The notes below the pieces were generated by a model, which did no database searches, was not told where the DNA came from, and saw only the letters and a program-made list of their open reading frames with translations. A program made the position numbers and the translations under genes. From contig OX393563.1 in NCBI GenBank assembly GCA_947652115.1, positions 26,175,292 to 26,239,291 on the forward strand: a stretch of 64,000 nt of DNA, written 5' to 3'. This DNA comes from Blastomussa wellsi (Eukaryota; Cnidaria; Anthozoa; Scleractinia; Plerogyridae). Each line of letters opens with the position of its first letter. The stretch's first letter is position 1. Shown here piece after piece: positions 6,104-14,865 of the stretch.

Positions 6104-7713
6104 TACTGGGGCCTAAGTGAATGTTATTCCTTTACATACTTTTCACCAACTTGAGTGTAATAATCTAGAGAGCACGACACAGAGGCTGTTTGGCTATGGT
6201 GGCAAACCCCTCAAGGTGGAAGGGAAGTGCACTTTAGCTTGTTCATACAAAGGAACACAGGGGCAACACCATTTCTATGTAGTGTCTACGCAGGCACCTC
6301 CAACACTGGGATTATCACCGTGCTTATCACTAAACCTGATTCACCTAGTACTCTCTCTAGAAGAAAGACAGGGCAGTGACATTCTCTTCCAGACCCCAGG
6401 AGACATATTAACTGAGTACAAAGATGTGTTTGAAGGTTTGGGGTCATTTCCTGGAGTACAAAAATTCCAACTTGAACCTGACGTCGACCCTGTAATTCAT
6501 CTTCCGCGAAAAGTCCCAATAGCCCTCCGGAAAAAGAGTTGGAGAGAATAGAGAGTTTGGAAGTTGTTGCAAAAGTGACGGAACCCACCGACTGGGTTAA
6601 CTCAATCGCAACTCCTGAGAAATAACGCACAGTTGCTTTGCGAGTGTGCTTAGATGCACGAGATCTGAGCAAGGCTGTAAAGCGAGAGCATTATCCTCTA
6701 CCGACCCTGGAGGAATTGACAATTATGTTGCCGGATGCTAAGAGTTTCGGTGTCCTGGATGCCACTTCAGGTTACTGGCAAATAAAGCTCGACGAGGAAA
6801 GCTCCTTTTTAACCACTTTCAACAAACCGTTTGGGCGTTACCGTTTCACCAGAATGCCATTCGGCATACAATAGGCACAAGAGGTGTTCAAGAAGACCAT
6901 GAGCATGGCATTTGAAGGCATTAATGGGTGCAAATCCATCATTGATGATATCCTTGTCTAGGGATCGTCCAAGCAAGAACATGACCAGAATCTGAGAAAA
7001 GTCCTAGAACGCAAACGAGAAGTTGGGATCAAGTGGAATGCGGGAAAATGGTCATGTAATATCTGCCATCCAAGAGATGGAGCCACCAAGAAACAAACAA
7101 CAACTCGAGACCCTACTTGGAATGGTGAATTATTTGGCTAAATTCGTACCAAACCTGGCAGAGACCACTGCACCTATGGGAAGCCTACTAATGAAAGATT
7201 CAGAGATTGAATGTGCACAGCAAACTGCTTTCGACAAAATGAAGCTGCTAATTACTTCAGCGAGAACCCTAGCGTACTACGATGTAAAGAAGGAAGTGAC
7301 ACTAGAAGTCGATGCATCTAAACATGGTTTAGGCGCCGTGCTCATGCAGGAAGGAAAACCCGTCGCCTATACGTTAAAATCTTTGAGACCCGCAGAACAG
7401 GAGTATGCCCATATAGAAAAGGAGATGTATGCAATAATATTTGGCACGAAGCGCTTCCATCACTACATTTACGGCAGAAATGTTACAGTCACACACGTTG
7501 TCCCGTCTGAATCTCAATGAAGTTGATGACACACACGAAGCTTTTGATGCCCAAGTTCACTTAGTCGTGACGAATTTGCCAATCTCTGACCAAACAATTT
7601 CGGACCTACAAGCCAGTACTGCATCGGATCCCGACATGCAGCAGCTTATCGCCGTCATCAAAGAGGGGTGGCCAGATCACCGAAACAGTTTTCCACCATC
7701 AGTAAACCCCTTC
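6080..7713 (+). pseudogene. pol: Ty3/Gypsy pol (protease, RT, RNase H), truncated before integrase
   Basis: An aspartic protease active-site string DTGA (6102-6113) is followed at once by a TAA stop. Reverse transcriptase follows: VCLDARDLSKAVKREHYPLPT near 6641, the SGYWQIKLDEES and FGRYRFTRMPFGIQ block ending in a stop at 6872-6874, and the catalytic IIDDILV near 6937-6957, again followed by a stop. RNase H is visible at 7023-7520, with VTLEVDASKHGLGAVLMQEGKPVAY and a TVTH string in place of the usual TDHKPL. Several stops and frame changes show old decay. The linker SDPDMQQLIAVIKEGWPDHR before integrase reads up to about 7700. Then the sequence switches abruptly to the GC-richer Rep element, and no integrase domain or 3' LTR appears on either side of it. 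Confidence 0.88.
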
Positions 7714-7816
7714 TTCTGTTTTTCGGCACCCAAATTTTCGGCAACTTTTCCATTGCCACAAGCCAGACCACTTTTACGTCGCCCAATAAGAGAAGGGTTG
7801 CCGAAAGTAAACAAGA

Positions 7817-9594
7817 ATGTCTTCGCAACAGCTAGTGGATTTCGACAACGGAACAGTGGTTCCACATCCTTCAAATATTGTAGCTTCGTTTTTCTCCGGG
7901 GCCAAAAACGAAGGCACAACACCCCCACCCCTCGCAACACCCGCTGCAAACGACGAAGTAGAAAAACAGGAAGTTGCAGCGACGAACGTCGACGACGCGA
8001 CCAAAACAAACCTTCGAAAGCATGACCAAAGACGAAGCCACAACACCCCTCGCAACTTCCGCTGCAAACGACGAAGTGGAAAAACAGGAAGTTACAGCGA
8101 CGAACGTCGACGACGCGACAAGACAAACCTTCGATAGTATGGGTCTGCGGTGCGAGAAATCTGTTGCCTACCACCTGCTACTCGAAAACGCGTACGAAAG
8201 CAATCTTCTGGCCGACATCGCCAAGGTCGACTATCTTGCAGGGAACCAAGGTCGCACGAACCTTCGGCCATTGGCTGGTCTTTCGCCTTTCGTCGACGAC
8301 ATCTTCGTATTTGACTATCTTTCCAGAGAGGAGTGCGTCTACAAGAGAGGAAAAATCTCCTGCCACGAGGGCCCATAAGGCGTGGCAAAAATTGTCGTGT
8401 CAAACATCGCAATAGCTTTGGAAAATGTCTTGGGGAAACGCAACACAACAAACATCGTCCACACAGTGTGGCAAGGGAAAGTTGAAAACAGCGCAATCCG
8501 CGCCACCATCGAGAGAATCGAGAAAAACACCTGGCACAGGGCAAAAAGAAGCTGGTTTGATCTACACCCCGGGGAAGAGATCGCCGGCTATTTCGTGGCA
8601 AAATGCGACGTTTCCGAAGTCCCAATGGAAGAGTTGCACCAGGCGCTGCCGGTTTTCGCAAATCGTCTGGTCGGAGGCTTCGGCTACGATATCTACTCCA
8701 TCGACTATACACAAGACTTTTCGGGCACTTTGGATCGCAAAACTCTTGTGGACTACCTTGGATTCGAAACGACAGGAAGTTTGTCCGTCGCAATGGGAGA
8801 AAATAGCCCCCGGCTCCTGGACAACATCGCCAGCGTCGGGGAGCACTGCTGCACCTGGCTCGAGACCACAGAACAACAACAAACCACAACCACCCGAAAC
8901 TAGATCTACAACAAAGTCGTTTCGAAATTCGAGGCAGGAGAAATCCGCGAGCCTGTTGGCGGGCACCTGGCAGAATACGCCGACTGCCCCAACCAGCAGC
9001 TCCGCCAAACATTCTTCCACCCAGACGTGCAAGCCCGAGGTTGTACTCGAATCGAAACCACTTTGTATGGCCTCCCACTCGACGAACTATAGAACGAGAA
9101 AGCTTCCGCCTGCATCGAGAAAGTCTTGGCGCAGGTTTCTGTCGACGGCGAACAACAAGCTCTCTTTGTGGTCCAACCGCCCAGCAAGCAGTGGCAAAAC
9201 CTCGCCGACCACCCTCTTGGGACGAAATGCGAAGAATACGACAAACTTTGCGCAGATCTCACCAAAACCAATTTTTCCAAAGTTTCTGCGCCAGCGAAAA
9301 AAAACGACAGACTTGCTGGCAAGAGAGTACATCTCCAAACGTTTCGCAGCGACAACCTTCCGAAACTCACCGCGGACCATTCTCTTCCTGCTCTCGCTCG
9401 GTGAAGACGGGGAACCGAAAACAGACGAAGAAACCCCAACGCACGGGTACTTTATGGAAAGAGAGATCGAGGCAATGGGAGGCCTCCATGCGCTAGAAAA
9501 AAAGAAAAACCCCATTGCATTGCCGACTTGGGGAGGAGAAAACGACACCGAGCAAGAAAAAAAGCCGCCGTGTTGCCCTGGTGTAGACCGGTGA
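7817..9594 (+). pseudogene. Rep-like replication protein, plus-strand copy, broken
   Basis: Translation begins at ATG 7817 (MSSQQLVDFDNGTVVP). A tandem duplication near 7908-8125 and a stop break the start; the main block reads on in other frames at 8164-8380 and 8382-8903. Key strings are KRSWFDLHPGEEIAGYFVAK, FGYDIYSIDYTQDFSGTLDR (the IDYTQDF part resembles the first motif of rolling-circle initiators), then IYNKVVSKFEAGE and RGCTRIET after a TAG at 8901-8903. An internal deletion near 9213 and a frame change near the A-run at 9297-9304 precede a plausible C-terminal block ending at 9594. The order motif-1-like, IYNK, R-x-E resembles Rep_trans or Replitron-type HUH proteins. This is my reading of the pattern and not a database match. 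The protein acts presumably on element DNA. Confidence 0.45.
7908..8125 (+). repeat. Tandem duplication of about 120 bp inside the Rep N-terminus
   Basis: The segment containing CTCGCAACACCCGCTGCAAA ... GAACGTCGACGACGCGAC occurs twice in a row (about 7908-8028 and 8029-8125 on). The opposite arm of the fold-back has this segment once (about 12000-12095), so the duplication arose in this arm after the copies separated, and it contributes to the frame disruption. Confidence 0.75.
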
Positions 9595-9879
9595 AATCGC
9601 AACAACCAATCCACCTTTGGTGCAGAAAACAAAACTCCCCCGGCAAGCAACAACAAAAAGCTCTCCCAGTCCCCAGTCCAACCATTTTTCTGCAGTCTCT
9701 GCATCGATATGTCCGACAATGTTGGCCGGAATATCTTCCATCGAGGTGCAGAACTTGCCAAGAGCTCTCCATTCCTTCCAGCAGACTTTGTCTTCTTGCT
9801 GCTCGTGCTCTTTCTTTCGGGTATGGAATTGGAAAAGAAAATGTGGCACACAGCCTGGTGGTAGAACCACAAGATCCAT
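9493..9879 (-). CDS. Unknown ORF of the Rep element, 128 aa
   Basis: This minus-strand frame starts at ATG 9879 and reads as plausible protein, with a Lys/Glu-rich stretch (HTRKKEHEQQEDK), then MEDIPANIVGHIDAETAEKW, LDWGLGELFVVACRGSFVF and a hydrophobic end. It lies 40 bases downstream of the coiled-coil ORF on the same strand, which suggests one transcription unit with it. The last 30 or so residues cross the junction with the plus-strand Rep copy and may not be native. Competing frames in this stretch are arginine- and cysteine-rich shadows. No family is recognised. Confidence 0.35.
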   Translation of the reverse strand: MDLVVLPPGCVPHFLFQFHTRKKEHEQQEDKVCWKEWRALGKFCTSMEDIPANIVGHIDAETAEKWLDWGLGELFVVACRGSFVFCTKGGLVVAISPVYTRATRRLFFLLGVVFSSPSRQCNGVFLFF

Positions 9880-9921
9880 TGTTTCTTTGTATATTGCATT
9901 GCATGTTTCTAATTGCGACTA

Positions 9922-10380
9922 CTATCTATACCATTGGACGAATTCGTTTGTCCGCAGGCTGCTGTGGCGGGGTGGCCAACTCCTCCTTTGCGCATTCTGT
10001 TGTTGCCACTCTTCGAATTTCGGTCGCAGTGTTGCATACAGAACAAGGAGGGCAGAACCAATCCCACCAACAATCCCAACAACCTGCACAACACCCACAA
10101 CAGCAGACGTTGCGGCATTGGCGGCGCCCACTATTCTATCTGTTTGCTCTCGAACAGCATTGCCGTTTTTTTCTATGCTCTCCAGGATTCCTTCGCTATT
10201 TTGCTCCAATTCCTCTTCAAACCCCTGCAAATCTTCCACAATCTCCTCCACATCTTCGAAGTGGCTTTCTTGGGTCTCCAAAAACAAATCCATATTTTTC
10301 TGCAGGTCCTGCACGCCGGCCAGGATCTGCGGCAGAAGAACATCCTGCCACTTTTTTCTGCGGTTTCTGCCGGCTTTGCA
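9922..10380 (-). CDS. Coiled-coil protein with C-terminal membrane segment, N-terminus in gap
   Basis: The open frame enters from the N gap and ends at 9922. The visible part (about 150 residues) has a helical, heptad-like acidic region (LQKNMDLFLETQESHFEDVE, then EELEQNSEGILESIEKNGNA), followed by a Gly/Val/Ala-rich hydrophobic segment (VVGVVQVVGIVGGIGSALLV) and a basic tail (RPKFEEWQQQNAQRRSW). This is a coiled coil plus one membrane helix with glycine spacing. It follows the Rep gene on the same strand, so it belongs to the minus-strand copy. Family not recognised; a virion or membrane-associated protein is possible but unproven. Confidence 0.45.
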   Translation of the reverse strand, partial: CKAGRNRRKKWQDVLLPQILAGVQDLQKNMDLFLETQESHFEDVEEIVEDLQGFEEELEQNSEGILESIEKNGNAVREQTDRIVGAANAATSAVVGVVQVVGIVGGIGSALLVLYATLRPKFEEWQQQNAQRRSWPPRHSSLRTNEFVQWYR

Positions 10381-10580
10381 NNNNNNNNNNNNNNNNNNNN
10401 NNNNNNNNNNNNNNNNNNNNNNNNNNNNNNNNNNNNNNNNNNNNNNNNNNNNNNNNNNNNNNNNNNNNNNNNNNNNNNNNNNNNNNNNNNNNNNNNNNNN
10501 NNNNNNNNNNNNNNNNNNNNNNNNNNNNNNNNNNNNNNNNNNNNNNNNNNNNNNNNNNNNNNNNNNNNNNNNNNNNNNNN
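10381..10580. other. Assembly gap (200 N)
   Basis: Exactly 200 unknown bases, the usual placeholder for a gap of unknown size. It interrupts the minus-strand Rep gene after ATLDRCLVLA and hides the start of the coiled-coil ORF. Any frame running through it is not evidence of coding. Confidence 0.99.
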
Positions 10581-12184
10581 CCGCGAGAACAAGGCACCTG
10601 TCGAGGGTGGCGGCGAGGTTTTGCCACTGCTTGCTGGGCGGTTGGACCACAAAGAGAGCTTGTTGTTCGCCGTCGACAGAAACCTGCGCCAAGACTTTCT
10701 CGATGCAGGCGGAAGCTTTCTCGTTCTATAGTTCGTCGAGTGGGAGGCCCTACAAAGTGGTTTCGATTCGAGTACAACCTCGGGCTTGCACGTCTGGGTG
10801 GAAGAATGTTTGGCGGAGCCGCTGGTTGGGGCAGTCGGCGTATTCTGCCAGGTGCCCGCCAACAGGCTCGCGGATTTCTCCTGCCTCGAAATTCGAAACG
10901 ACTTTGTTGTAGATCTTGTTTCGGGTAGTTGTGGTTTGTTGTTGTTCTGTGGTCTCGAGCCAGGTGCAGCAGTGCTCCCCGACGCTGGCGATGTTGTCCA
11001 GGAGCCGGGGGCTATTTTCTCCCATTGCGGCGGACAAACTTCCTGCCGTTTCGAATCCAAGGTAGTCCATAAGAGCTTTGCGATCCAAAGTGCCCGAAAA
11101 GTCTTGTGTATAGTCGATGGAGTAGATATCGTAGCCGAAGCCTCCGACCAGACGATTTGCGAAAACCGGCAGCGCCTGGTGCAACTCTTCCATTGGGACT
11201 TCGGAAACGTCGCATTTCGCCACGAAATAGCCGGCGATCTCTTCCCCGGGGTGTAGATCAAACCAGCTTCTTTTTGCCCTGTGCAAGGTTTTTTTATCGA
11301 TTCTCTCGATGGTGGCGCGGATTGCGCTGTTTTCCACTTTCCCTTGTCCCACTGTGTGGACGATGTTTGTTGTGTTGCGTTTCCCCAGGACATTTTCCAA
11401 AGCTATTGCGATGTTTGCCACGACAATTTTTGCCACGCCTTGTGGGCCCTCGGGGCAGGTGATTTTTTCTCTCTTGTAGACGCACTCCTCTCTGGAAAGA
11501 TAGCCAAATACGAAGATGTCGTCGACGAAAGGCGAAAGACCAGCCAATGGCCGAAGGTTCGTGCGACCTTGGTTCCCTGCAAGATAGTCGACCTTGGCGA
11601 TGTCGGCCAGAAGATTGCTTTCGTACGCGTTTTCGAGTAGCAGGTGGTGGAGGCAGCGTGGCCGAGTGGTTAGGGCGCCGGACTTGAAATCCGGAGGTCA
11701 CGGGTTCAAGTCCCGCTGTGACCACTTAGCTGGAGCTGTTTCTTGGTGGACCCTAGTTCAACTCCTCGGTCATGCTTTTATATAGCCAACTGGTCCGCCT
11801 CCCGCCAGTTGGGATTTTCAAGCTTGTTATGTTTATTTGAAATATTTGTTTCCCTCAGTTTGAGTGGCATGTCTGAGAATTAGCTTGATGTAGCTAAGTG
11901 CATGACCACTATAATCATTCATTTGACATTTTGACATTTGACATTTTTTAGGCAACAGATTTCTCGCACCGCAGACCCATACTATCGAAGGTTTGTCTTG
12001 TCGCGTCGTCGACGTTCGTCGCTGCAACTTCCTGTTTTTCTACTTCGTCGTTTGCAGCGGGTATTGCGAGGGGTGGGGGTGTTGTGGCTTCGTTTTTGGC
12101 CCCAGAGGAAAACAAAACTACAATATTGGAAGGTTGTGGAACCACTGTTCCGTTGTCGAAATCCACCAGCTGTTGCGAAGACAT
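10581..12184 (-). pseudogene. Rep-like replication protein, minus-strand copy, split by a SINE
   Basis: The start is ATG 12184 (MSSQQLVDFDNGTVVPQP), giving one open frame to GLRCEKSVA at about 11950. There a SINE of about 300 bp interrupts it. The frame resumes at about 11640 (YHLLLENAYESN) and stays open to 10750, covering LHRAKRSWFDLHPGEEIAGY, FGYDIYSIDYTQDFSGTLDR and KIYNKVVSNFEAGEIREPVG without the stop found in the plus copy. After a stop near 10729 a further block (MAQVSVDGEQQALFVVQPPS) runs into the N gap. The 50-codon N-terminus is acidic and low in complexity. Without the SINE this arm is the better-preserved copy. Assignment as an HUH-like replication initiator is tentative. Confidence 0.45.
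11649..11949 (+). mobile_element. tRNA-derived SINE inserted in the Rep gene
   Basis: The head has the pol III internal promoter: A box TGGCCGAGTGG (11659-11669) and B box GGTTCAAGTCC (11703-11713), with a serine-type anticodon stem-loop around TGA (CCGGACTTGAAATCCGG). The body contains the segment GCCAACTGGTCCGCCTCCCG and TTATGTTTATTTGAA, which I associate with a SINE common in coral genomes. The 3' tail has repeats of TTGACATT. The other Rep arm at 8160-8185 gives the empty site: host sequence reads on across the insertion point there. Confidence 0.85.
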
Positions 12185-12230
12185 TCTTGTTTACTTTCGG
12201 CAACCCTTCTCTTATTGGGCGACGCAAAAG

Positions 12231-12284
12231 TGGTCTGGCTTGTGGCAATGGAAAAGTGGTCTGGTTTGTGGCAATGGAAAAGTT
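12231..12284. repeat. Two 26-bp direct repeats upstream of Rep (iteron-like)
   Basis: The unit GTGGTCTGGYTTGTGGCAAT plus GGAAAA occurs twice without a spacer, 50-100 bases upstream of the Rep start at 12184. The other arm (7745-7780) has only one unit. Placement directly before a Rep gene resembles iterons, the binding sites of replication initiators. That function is inference. Confidence 0.5.
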
Positions 12285-12299
12285 GCCGAAATTTTGGGT

Positions 12300-12483
12300 G
12301 CCGAAAAAAAAAGTGCGCTCTTCTAAAAACTCCGATGCCACAGCTGCGGCATGGTGCGGGCTTTTGCATTCCTTTTTTTATTTGCCAGTTATGCTGTGAG
12401 CAATAGTTTCCGTCGCACTTTTTGCCGCAGTTCTTTTGCCGATTTCGCAGCAACCACATGCAGTTGTTTGCTCCGTGTGCCAT
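12300..12483 (-). CDS. Small Cys/His-rich ORF of the Rep element
   Basis: The frame starts at ATG 12483 (MAHGANNCMWLLRNRQ) and has a metal-binding-like series: C-G-K-K-C-x4-Y-C-x2-H, then PCRSCG. The spacing of three to four Cys/His pairs in about 50 residues suggests one or two zinc-binding knuckles. The frame formally stays open to 12118, but the last part crosses the iteron region and does not look like protein. It lies between the terminal hairpins and Rep on the same strand, so it would be the first gene of the unit. The plus-strand arm lacks it. Exact family unknown. Confidence 0.4.
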
Positions 12484-12520
12484 TACAGGGCTCGCCGCTT
12501 CTGTCTAATTGTTCGAAACT

Positions 12521-12890
12521 GACAGGGGGTGTTCTTCTACAAGTAGTATCTCCGGGATTTAACAAATACACACCTGGTCGTTCTACCGTTTTGCTATTAC
12601 TGTAACTCCCAGGAGAAATAAGTGAGCAAAGCGAGCTTCTTTGTCCTGGGAGTTATAGCAAAACGGTTGAACGACTAGGTGGTTCGAACCTGACAGGGGG
12701 TGTTCTTCTACAAGTAGTATCTCCGGGATTTAACAAATACACGCGTGGTCGTTCAACCGGTTTGCTATTACTGTAACTCCCAGGAGAAAGAAGTGAGCAA
12801 AGCGAGCTTCTTTCTCCTGGGAGTTACAGTAATAGCAAAACGGTTGAACGACCAGGTGGTATTTGTTAAATCCCGGAGATACTACTGGGG
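12521..12890. repeat. Two tandem long hairpins at the outer end of the Rep element
   Basis: A unit of 171 bases beginning GACAGGGGGTGTTCTTCTAC starts at 12521 and again at 12692. Each unit is itself an inverted repeat. The second is nearly perfect, with arms of about 80 bases (12713-12798 and 12799-12884) that close on AGTGAGCAAAGCGAGCTT. The first has shorter arms (about 12573-12682) and lacks a CAGTAA step in one arm. Such terminal palindromes suit replication ends or a MITE. The position at the end of a Rep unit favours the former (inference). Confidence 0.7.
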
Positions 12891-14085
12891 GCGTGGGCCT
12901 GCCAAGCCGTGTCGTTTATTTAACACTTACGCAGATATGTGCAAATAACAAGTATTATATATAAACGAAAAAACAGGAGCACCAAACCGGACACGAAAAC
13001 CCCAAAAAACCAGCAAGTGGAAAAAACACGGGGAACGTTACCCCCGACCAAGGCAGTGGTGCAACCCTTGGGGTTTTAGGGAATGCTAGTGTCTAAACTA
13101 TAAACATCAATAAACACACAAGTAAAACTGAGTTGCGTAAATGTTCGCAAGACCAAGCAAACTTTCACGTCTTTTCCCTCCCTACACCTTTCCTTTTTAC
13201 GCCTGCTACGTGGGTTATTACTGTCCCGGAGGGGGGGGAGGGGGTACTTGACCCATGTTTGGTTATAAGGGGTGCCGCTGGAGGTGACCCTGTTTAGGAC
13301 CAAAATAACCTCAAACATGTACCCTGTTTAGGACCAAGGAGAATGTTTTGTTACACTCTAGCGCTAGTGTCTAGTCCTGAAGATGATTTAATGTTGACTG
13401 ATGATCGGCTAACTGAGTGATGATGAACGGTTCTGATTTCGGATATGCTTACAACTTGACGAAAGTCTTGAAGCTATACCGTCTACAGGACGACTCCTTA
13501 ATATCCAAACCCTGTTTAGCACAGACTCTCTTGAATTATTTACCCTGTTCAGGACTGAGGGTTCAAAAACCATACCCTATCCAGCGGCTGTCCCCGTATA
13601 GCCCATGCAAGGGAGGACTCCCCTTCCCCCACGAATGACTGTACCAAAAGCCGCCTACGTTTGTGTCTGTTGAATGAGTTAAACAAGGTGCTGCCGTATT
13701 TTTTTATTTGTTGATCGTGTAATCCTTCACGTGAAACTGAAATCAGTCTATCAACTGATAGTTAACAGAACGAAACGAAACCACCAAATTCTCAAAACAA
13801 ATACCAGTATAAAAGGTCGTGTGATGCTGCACACTACACAAAATGAAATCGTGCTTATATAGTGCTCTTGATGAAAGTTTTGAATGGCAAGAGATCGTTT
13901 AAAAGTGTTGCAGGAAATGACTGTGTTTATCCAAGTTTATTGACGTTTTTTAATGATAATGACGAAAGGGTGTAAGTTCAGGAGGATTGAAGGAGTGTAA
14001 AGTCCCATATCTTGGCAACTGTTTAAATTGTGTTGAAAAGAATTTTTATTTAGAAAAGAGGCAAGCACAGTGAGAAAGTTTTAAA
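12891..14085. repeat. Non-coding DNA with CCCTGTTTAGGACC-type repeat
   Basis: The string ACCCTGTTTAGGACCAA occurs at about 13288 and 13322, with diverged forms near 13511 and 13541 (ACCCTGTTCAGGACTGAGGG). A G-run segment at 13219-13235 precedes it. This looks like an old dispersed repeat. No gene is visible from 12891 to 14085. Confidence 0.45.
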
Positions 14086-14089
14086 CTGA

Positions 14090-14865
14090 ATATGACACGA
14101 AATGTTTTTCTCTTGATTCTTGTAGTTGGACATCTAAAGAAAACGTTTCGAAGCCTTAAAAGTGCTGGAAAAATCTAAAAAGCATTGTTTTGGCTTTCAA
14201 AATACGCGTAATTTCCCTTCAAATTAGCCTGCGTAGCAAGCGTTCCCAGCGAGCGAAGATCGAAGAGCGATTTCTGCGAAGAGCTAAGAGCTATTTCCTT
14301 TTTGCCCTCGCCCCAATTTTCGCGCGACCGGAAATCGCTCTTCGCTCTTCGCAGAAATCGCTCTTCGATCTTCGCTCGCTTGGGAACGCTTGCTACGCAG
14401 GCAACCTTCAAATTTGTCCCAGAGACTGGGACCTAGTTTATCGACGGCGAAGTTATTCGTTACGTCACATTGTGTACCTTTGCCGCGAAGGTGCTCTGAC
14501 TACCGGAACAGTGACAAACTGGTGCATCGTAATTCCCTCTGTGTGTGAATTATTCCCACAGCTCGTTTTATTCGGGGCGCCAGCGACGCAGCGTCTTCCT
14601 CCTTTCGGTTTCTTTCCCTTTTCCGCCACATTTTGTGTTGCATTGAGGTACACAATTTGACGTCACGTTCCGATATCACGTGTGATTTTGGCCGCGCGAT
14701 GACCGGAACAAATTTGAAGGCAAGTTGCGCGTATTTTGAAAGCAAAAAAAGTTCTTTTTAGACTTTTCCAGCACTTTTAAGGCTTCGAGTCGTTTTCTAA
14801 AGATATCCAAGAGAAAAAAATTCAAGAGAAAAAAATTTCGTGTCATTTGCACTTTAAGATGCGAT
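14090..14865. mobile_element. Long-inverted-repeat DNA transposon, non-autonomous
   Basis: The left arm (14090-14225, with AAGCCTTAAAAGTGCTGGAA and GGCTTTCAAAATACGCG) is the inverted counterpart of 14715-14860. The arms are about 130 bases and imperfect. The left arm is interrupted by a second, younger element (14226-14405). The interior (14405-14700) has no transposase frame; open frames at 14465-14745 are unrelated to known proteins. Confidence 0.7.
14226..14405. mobile_element. Nested 180-bp MITE with 9-bp target duplication
   Basis: The ends AGCCTGCGTAGCAAGCGTTC and GAACGCTTGCTACGCAGGC are inverted repeats that extend through GCGAGCGAAGATCGAAGAGC inward. CTTCAAATT stands directly before (14217-14225) and after (14406-14414), a 9-base target duplication as made by Mutator-like transposases. 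A related fragment lies at about 40252-40350. Confidence 0.88.

Follow-up and report, generated by a model that had tools for sequence, protein, structure and literature searches.

What kind of element lies folded back on itself in the scleractinian Blastomussa wellsi, at positions 7719-12886 of the 64,000-nucleotide stretch analysed here (the window; C4:26175292-26239291 of host genome G000, 368 Mb in 124 contigs)? A preliminary description, made from the sequence alone, suggested that it may be an undescribed animal replicon or integrated virus-like element encoding a Rep-like protein. The sequence there is one copy, truncated on its left, of a mobile element that occurs many times in the genome; the element has hairpin inverted terminal repeats (ITRs), 5-bp target site duplications (TSDs), a fold-back arrangement and a set of three genes under coding constraint. 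We give an even chance to the reading that this is a eukaryotic mobile replicon, in which a nickase of the Rep_trans type would open the hairpin and the element would be copied by folding back on itself.

Copies elsewhere in the genome define the ends, since complete copies end in hairpin ITRs flanked by 5-bp TSDs. These ITRs start with AGTAGT and end with ACTACT; L022L and L023L deviate by point changes. In a set of 14 hairpins from 11 loci, some rows of which are close kin, the stems covary: 34 of 60 pairs are changed on both sides between copies, and 93.4% of the stem cells are paired, compared with 78.1% after shuffling and 33-41% after sliding. L016R was kept in this set though it is cut at a guessed inner end, and its inner side is unpaired. 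In 12 elements both ends could be read and match, and every one of these has a perfect TSD of 5 bp: ATAGT in L009, AAACG in L010 (left flank taken from L040), ACTGG in L022, GGGGG in L023 (within a G run), GGTCT in L037, and ATAAC, CGGGT, ACAAA, CCTCC, AAGCT, AGTTG and TATTC in seven ITR pairs that came from a genome search with a single hairpin as probe. The count leaves out the chimera L026 and the elements with one readable end (the window, L011, L013, L016, L021, L024, L038 and L051); the readable end of L048 enters it via L066/L067, and the ITR pair C12:11488257/11504839 and a 159-kb pair on C16 are outside the 12 read. The seventh ITR pair, 7.2 kb, contains matches to Rep and to the coiled-coil protein described below. 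A duplication of this kind needs a staggered double-strand joint.

The inverted copies that share the Rep-like gene are real. In the window, 8170-9207 pairs with 10611-11648, the inner part of the right arm (- strand), over 1038 nt that are 98% complementary, and further out 7744-8001 pairs with 12000-12257 (96%), 8044-8170 with 11949-12075 (96%) and 7719-7783 with 12244-12308 (92%); these lengths and identities exclude a chance origin. The left arm with its four inverted-repeat pairs (7719-9207, +) has lost its outer hairpin, and palindrome searches of the left side found none. The right end carries the terminal hairpin in two tandem copies (12542-12886, +), the outer of which (12713-12886, terminal ...TACTACT) has a folding energy of -84.9 kcal/mol against -15.4 +/- 3.1 in shuffles. 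The long terminal palindromes first described are thus found at the right end and not at the left, and the end itself, placed at 12890, is corrected to 12886. The first right-flank bases are GGGGG (12887-12891), which with the left end lost are not provable as a target duplication. A 200-N assembly gap lies between the arms (10381-10580), so the lopsidedness of this copy may partly be an assembly effect.

The Rep ORF (open reading frame) gave at least 150 match rows in G000 (144 of 491 candidates scored) and the element DNA at least 48 (40 of 305 scored), both lower bounds. Rep matches are mostly 77-95% identical to the window, with a second group at 50-60% and few between; one compact member of the second group, L037, measures 2538 bp and has a single Rep. 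From the 48 rows we picked 20 loci of 10 kb, a biased sample that makes 21 with the window, L014 and L015 being the two arms of a single site. In 17 of the 21 there are long inverted arms, for the most part 86-99% alike; L014, L015, L019 and L024 showed none. Matches of the window pieces (tblastn) give the order in each arm as N-terminal part, Rep, convergent small ORF and coiled-coil ORF, and centre, after which the mirror image often follows; partial deletions are frequent. Two different elements make up the chimera L026, whose Rep copies are 66% and arms 73% alike and whose ITRs and flanks differ.

Conserved motifs and a modelled structure lead us to predict that the main protein acts as a tyrosine nickase of the Rep_trans type that depends on metal, with Tyr213 and Lys215 in the active site and Asp9, Asp145 and Glu262 as candidate metal ligands. 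The motif order noticed beforehand (D..D, IYNK, R-x-E) is borne out by conservation across the family as D, D...D, KxYNK, RxE. In window ORF numbering, Y213 is found in 80 of 82 members and K215 in all 82, a likeness of sequence motif only; Y213 falls within a predicted strand (207-214), and the Rep_trans counterpart of the pair is Y191/K193 (PMC4797284). D9, D145 and E262 are conserved in this order, D9 and E262 superposing with Rep_trans by alignment end points, if ungapped there, and D145 corresponding by motif order alone. AlphaFold2 and Foldseek placed the homolog P0020 first with Rep_trans initiators. We class the protein as one predicted to work like Rep_trans, not as a member of PF02486. 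The nearest enzymes by predicted structure are Rep_trans initiators, one of the families first suggested, whose TBP-like fold differs from that of HUH enzymes. The resemblance to HUH initiators was not upheld, no HUH motif being conserved in the family.

Searches of Pfam, NCBIfam and PHROGs with the window pieces or the family members gave nothing convincing, and neither did sequence searches of the PDB (best E 0.097; 0.047, to a designed protein, in another search). The viral and genome contigs searched yielded no confirmed relative, a phage search gave two matches (E 2 and 6), and RepDE is absent among the best 50 Foldseek matches listed. The homolog P0046 bears precomputed Pfam domains. Many long members have 600-800 amino acids, with a long C-terminal part.

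The gene described beforehand as a coiled-coil membrane protein was found at 9922-10377 (-) and a small ORF at 9493-9879 (-), by the ORF list and tblastn. The latter, about 100 amino acids in other copies and convergent with Rep, is probably the "Cys/His ORF" of the preliminary description. The coiled-coil protein, complete in L021:5325-5969, has by eye a helix-turn-helix-like start, which in the window copy, judging from other copies, probably falls inside the N gap, and a hydrophobic stretch near its C-terminus. Apart from one coiled-coil hit at 0.23 it has no Pfam match; weak hits to Fe-S_assembly, apolipoprotein and phrog_2990 look like coiled-coil noise and were rejected. A search at E <= 1 gave 40 homologs of it, and six contigs elsewhere (lengths 3928902, 2614759, 1155043, 1711270, 3455624 and 14290), paired between the two homolog lists by size alone, hold both Rep and coiled-coil homologs, so that the two genes seem to be linked in other assemblies too. 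Because of this and the constant gene order among the copies in G000, Rep, the small ORF and the coiled-coil ORF belong together, as had been assumed. Pooled dN/dS over copies with at least 80% query coverage is 0.40 for Rep (22 copies), 0.38 for the small ORF (30) and 0.57 for the coiled coil (19); individual copies of the three genes contain 0-2 stops. Ten ORFs from both strands of the complete copy L023 have no Pfam match at E 0.01.

We hypothesize that Rep nicks and opens the terminal hairpin, and that replication would then enter the element and fold back via the self-complementary arms, making one arm a copy of its partner and restoring the hairpin. Arm copying and hairpin rebuilding are the steps that likewise mark rolling-hairpin or self-complementary genomes. 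Fold-back copying would explain why an arm mostly has its closest match in the other arm of its own copy, and why the hairpin stems vary between copies yet remain paired. The nearest Rep copy is the one at the same locus in 18 of 24 rows; for the small ORF this holds in 17 of 19, four of the 17 being same-strand duplicates. The DNA would finally join a new site by a 5-bp staggered joint, for which the candidates are the element's own three proteins (Rep, small ORF and coiled-coil/membrane protein) and an integrase provided in trans.

Several observations weigh against this reading. In 8 of the 43 rows (Rep and small ORF) the nearest copy is at another locus, the Foldseek scores are modest with TBP as high as Rep_trans or higher, the PF02486 profile went unmatched in 20 family members scanned with E up to 10, and the ends equal the Maverick end motif (AGT)2//(ACT)2 (PMC8097293). 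This last point makes the supply of functions by larger elements a serious rival: the Rep elements could hitch-hike on Polintons/Mavericks, whose integrase would insert them in trans, with Rep serving only replication or being a passenger. Six ITR pairs spaced 14.6, 15.3, 14.8, 19.5, 47.4 and 38.8 kb apart, a size range that fits Polintons, match the ITR of one Rep element at 80-87%, each pair being flanked by a perfect TSD of 5 bp (G000 C12:12202877-12217500, C12:16259268-16274530, C15:12391411-12406213, C2:10011594-10031113, C1:3491558-3538927 and C16:9664990-9703785). DNA_pol_B_2 is abundant as well, with at least 140 match rows and several open frames of 1322 codons, which suggests a Polinton-type expansion. 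Target duplication is common to both, but here it measures 5 bp in all 12 elements read and not the 6 bp of Polintons, and the ITRs of the Rep elements are hairpins. Among the matches listed, neither Rep, the coiled-coil gene nor DNA_pol_B_2 lies inside the six intervals, whose gene contents are unread, and for DNA_pol_B_2 this absence is weak because 74 of 1043 candidates were scored. No polymerase, integrase or capsid match was found among the ORFs scanned from Rep copies, which are part of all their ORFs; the virus-like character once suggested gains no capsid from these, and the large intervals, possibly the more important find, bear on it as well. On balance we hold the hitch-hiker explanation to be unlikely, if worth taking seriously.

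It is improbable that the element is a DNA transposon that has long inverted repeats and moves by cut and paste, the "Rep" being a DNA-binding protein of TBP fold or an unrecognised transposase. The constant TSD length and the structural score of TBP would suit it, but conservation is among the highest at the Tyr, Lys and acidic residues that a Rep_trans site would be expected to have, and covarying, hairpin-forming ends are unexpected for ordinary terminal repeats. Integration of a virus resembling parvoviruses or CRESS viruses, with a Rep of the HUH type, would explain hairpin termini and a rolling-hairpin-like anatomy, and the Rep of adeno-associated virus (AAV) 5 is at rank 36 of the Foldseek listing (E 0.36). 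The only conserved histidines of the domain are H232 and H250, however, which form no H-x-H; the HUH pattern occurs in 14 and the Walker A helicase motif GxxxxGK[ST] in 2 of 48 long members (at residues 34 and 665), the family members scanned lack Pfam matches and TSDs are present, and we discarded this very improbable reading on the missing conserved HUH and Walker A motifs. That the fold-back layout is an assembly artefact, as 200-N gaps at or near the middle in 11 of the 21 loci might suggest, is hardly credible and was rejected, since arm divergence reaches about 14%, inverted copies without a gap are found (L021, L022, L023 and L027) and two of these, L022 and L023, have matched hairpins and TSDs at both ends.

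Taking up the mobile replicon again, its protein shares with Rep_trans (PF02486; pT181-family RepD/RepC, RepSTK1 and CTXphi-type phage Rep) a predicted TBP-like curved sheet and the order D, D...D, Tyr-x-Lys, Arg-x-Glu, and the bacterial members act at hairpin DNA. It differs in having no sequence-profile match and two replaced active-site arginines, in the length of many members, and in being eukaryotic and chromosomal with TSDs and hairpin ITRs. Rep-Arvir of archaeal viruses and plasmids (PMC13107129) has the same structure-only relation to Rep_trans and similar Foldseek company (TBPs and the same Inoviridae entry A0A345MNV4), but its tyrosine stands in KHYYM and not KxYNK. Foldback transposons likewise have long self-folding inverted repeats, an anatomical likeness only. 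Helitrons and Replitrons, thought to move via a rolling-circle type nuclease, are eukaryotic like the Rep element but use HUH enzymes, and none is known to have a hairpin ITR with a 5-bp TSD. Parvoviruses and self-complementary AAV vectors have hairpin ends and an inverted-repeat genome able to self-fold, as here; their Rep combines HUH with a superfamily 3 helicase, and to our knowledge they make no TSD.

As to the remaining features of the window copy, the left Rep-like gene (8178-9065, +) is 93% identical to the right one and broken by one TAG and one TAA. Its C-terminal part (9126-9404, +) is fused to the preceding Rep part by an internal deletion: in several other copies (tblastn), about 1 kb separates the sequences matching its residues 1-27 and 31-92. 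The right copy has a catalytic domain of 265 open codons (10753-11547, -) and its N-terminal region at 11948-12184 (-, tblastn). Between these, an insert of about 300 bp (about 11649-11948) in the right arm contains a tRNA-Ser(TGA) (11652-11725, +) that is probably foreign to the element; arm pairing restarts at 11949. The 26-bp direct repeats before Rep, already noticed, are present as 2.2 iteron-like copies of 96% identity (12226-12283, +), and the same unit recurs in both arms of L020 (1516-1591 and 8923-8998), the centre of which has repeats of about 11 bp.

Other features were seen in the window and at other loci. ORF pieces at 6117-7520, close to the left end, resemble by eye a Ty3/Gypsy-type pol fragment, and nested inverted repeats of GAAATCGCTCTTCGCTCTTCGC units at 14218-14411 are probably a small inverted-repeat element. 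A near-perfect palindrome of about 194 bp (L021:881-1074, L011:9545-9737), with ends unlike the AGTAGT hairpins, looks like a separate repeat family. Palindromes of yet other sequence, with ACACA... ends, occur in the arm pair L014:1030-1175 and L015:8411-8560, about 10 kb apart; they sit where AGTAGT hairpins are expected and could be another ITR type or a nested element.

The element was called undescribed, and as far as our literature and database searches went it is: we found no eukaryotic Rep_trans element in open-access PMC, while Repbase and subscription papers lay outside the search and may hold an unclassified entry. According to PMC13107129, Rep_trans enzymes are apparently restricted to bacteria, with an archaeal relative newly described in April 2026. 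The elements probably constitute a new eukaryotic class of mobile DNA, with a mechanism that we infer. The fuller proposal, a new replicon class with the first eukaryotic Rep_trans-type nickase, covarying hairpins, a self-complementary genome and larger kin (14.6-47 kb, sharing the ends and the 5-bp TSD), perhaps complete transposons or integrated viruses that it depends on, we put forward tentatively, at a little under an even chance. Palindromes of the Rep elements often coincide with assembly gaps in this genome. The covarying hairpins and mirrored arms offer a natural system for the copying and insertion of palindromic genomes. If the proposal is true, a eukaryotic chromosomal branch would extend the replication chemistry of Rep_trans to the third domain, and a further class of transposable elements would stand beside Helitrons, Replitrons and Polintons.

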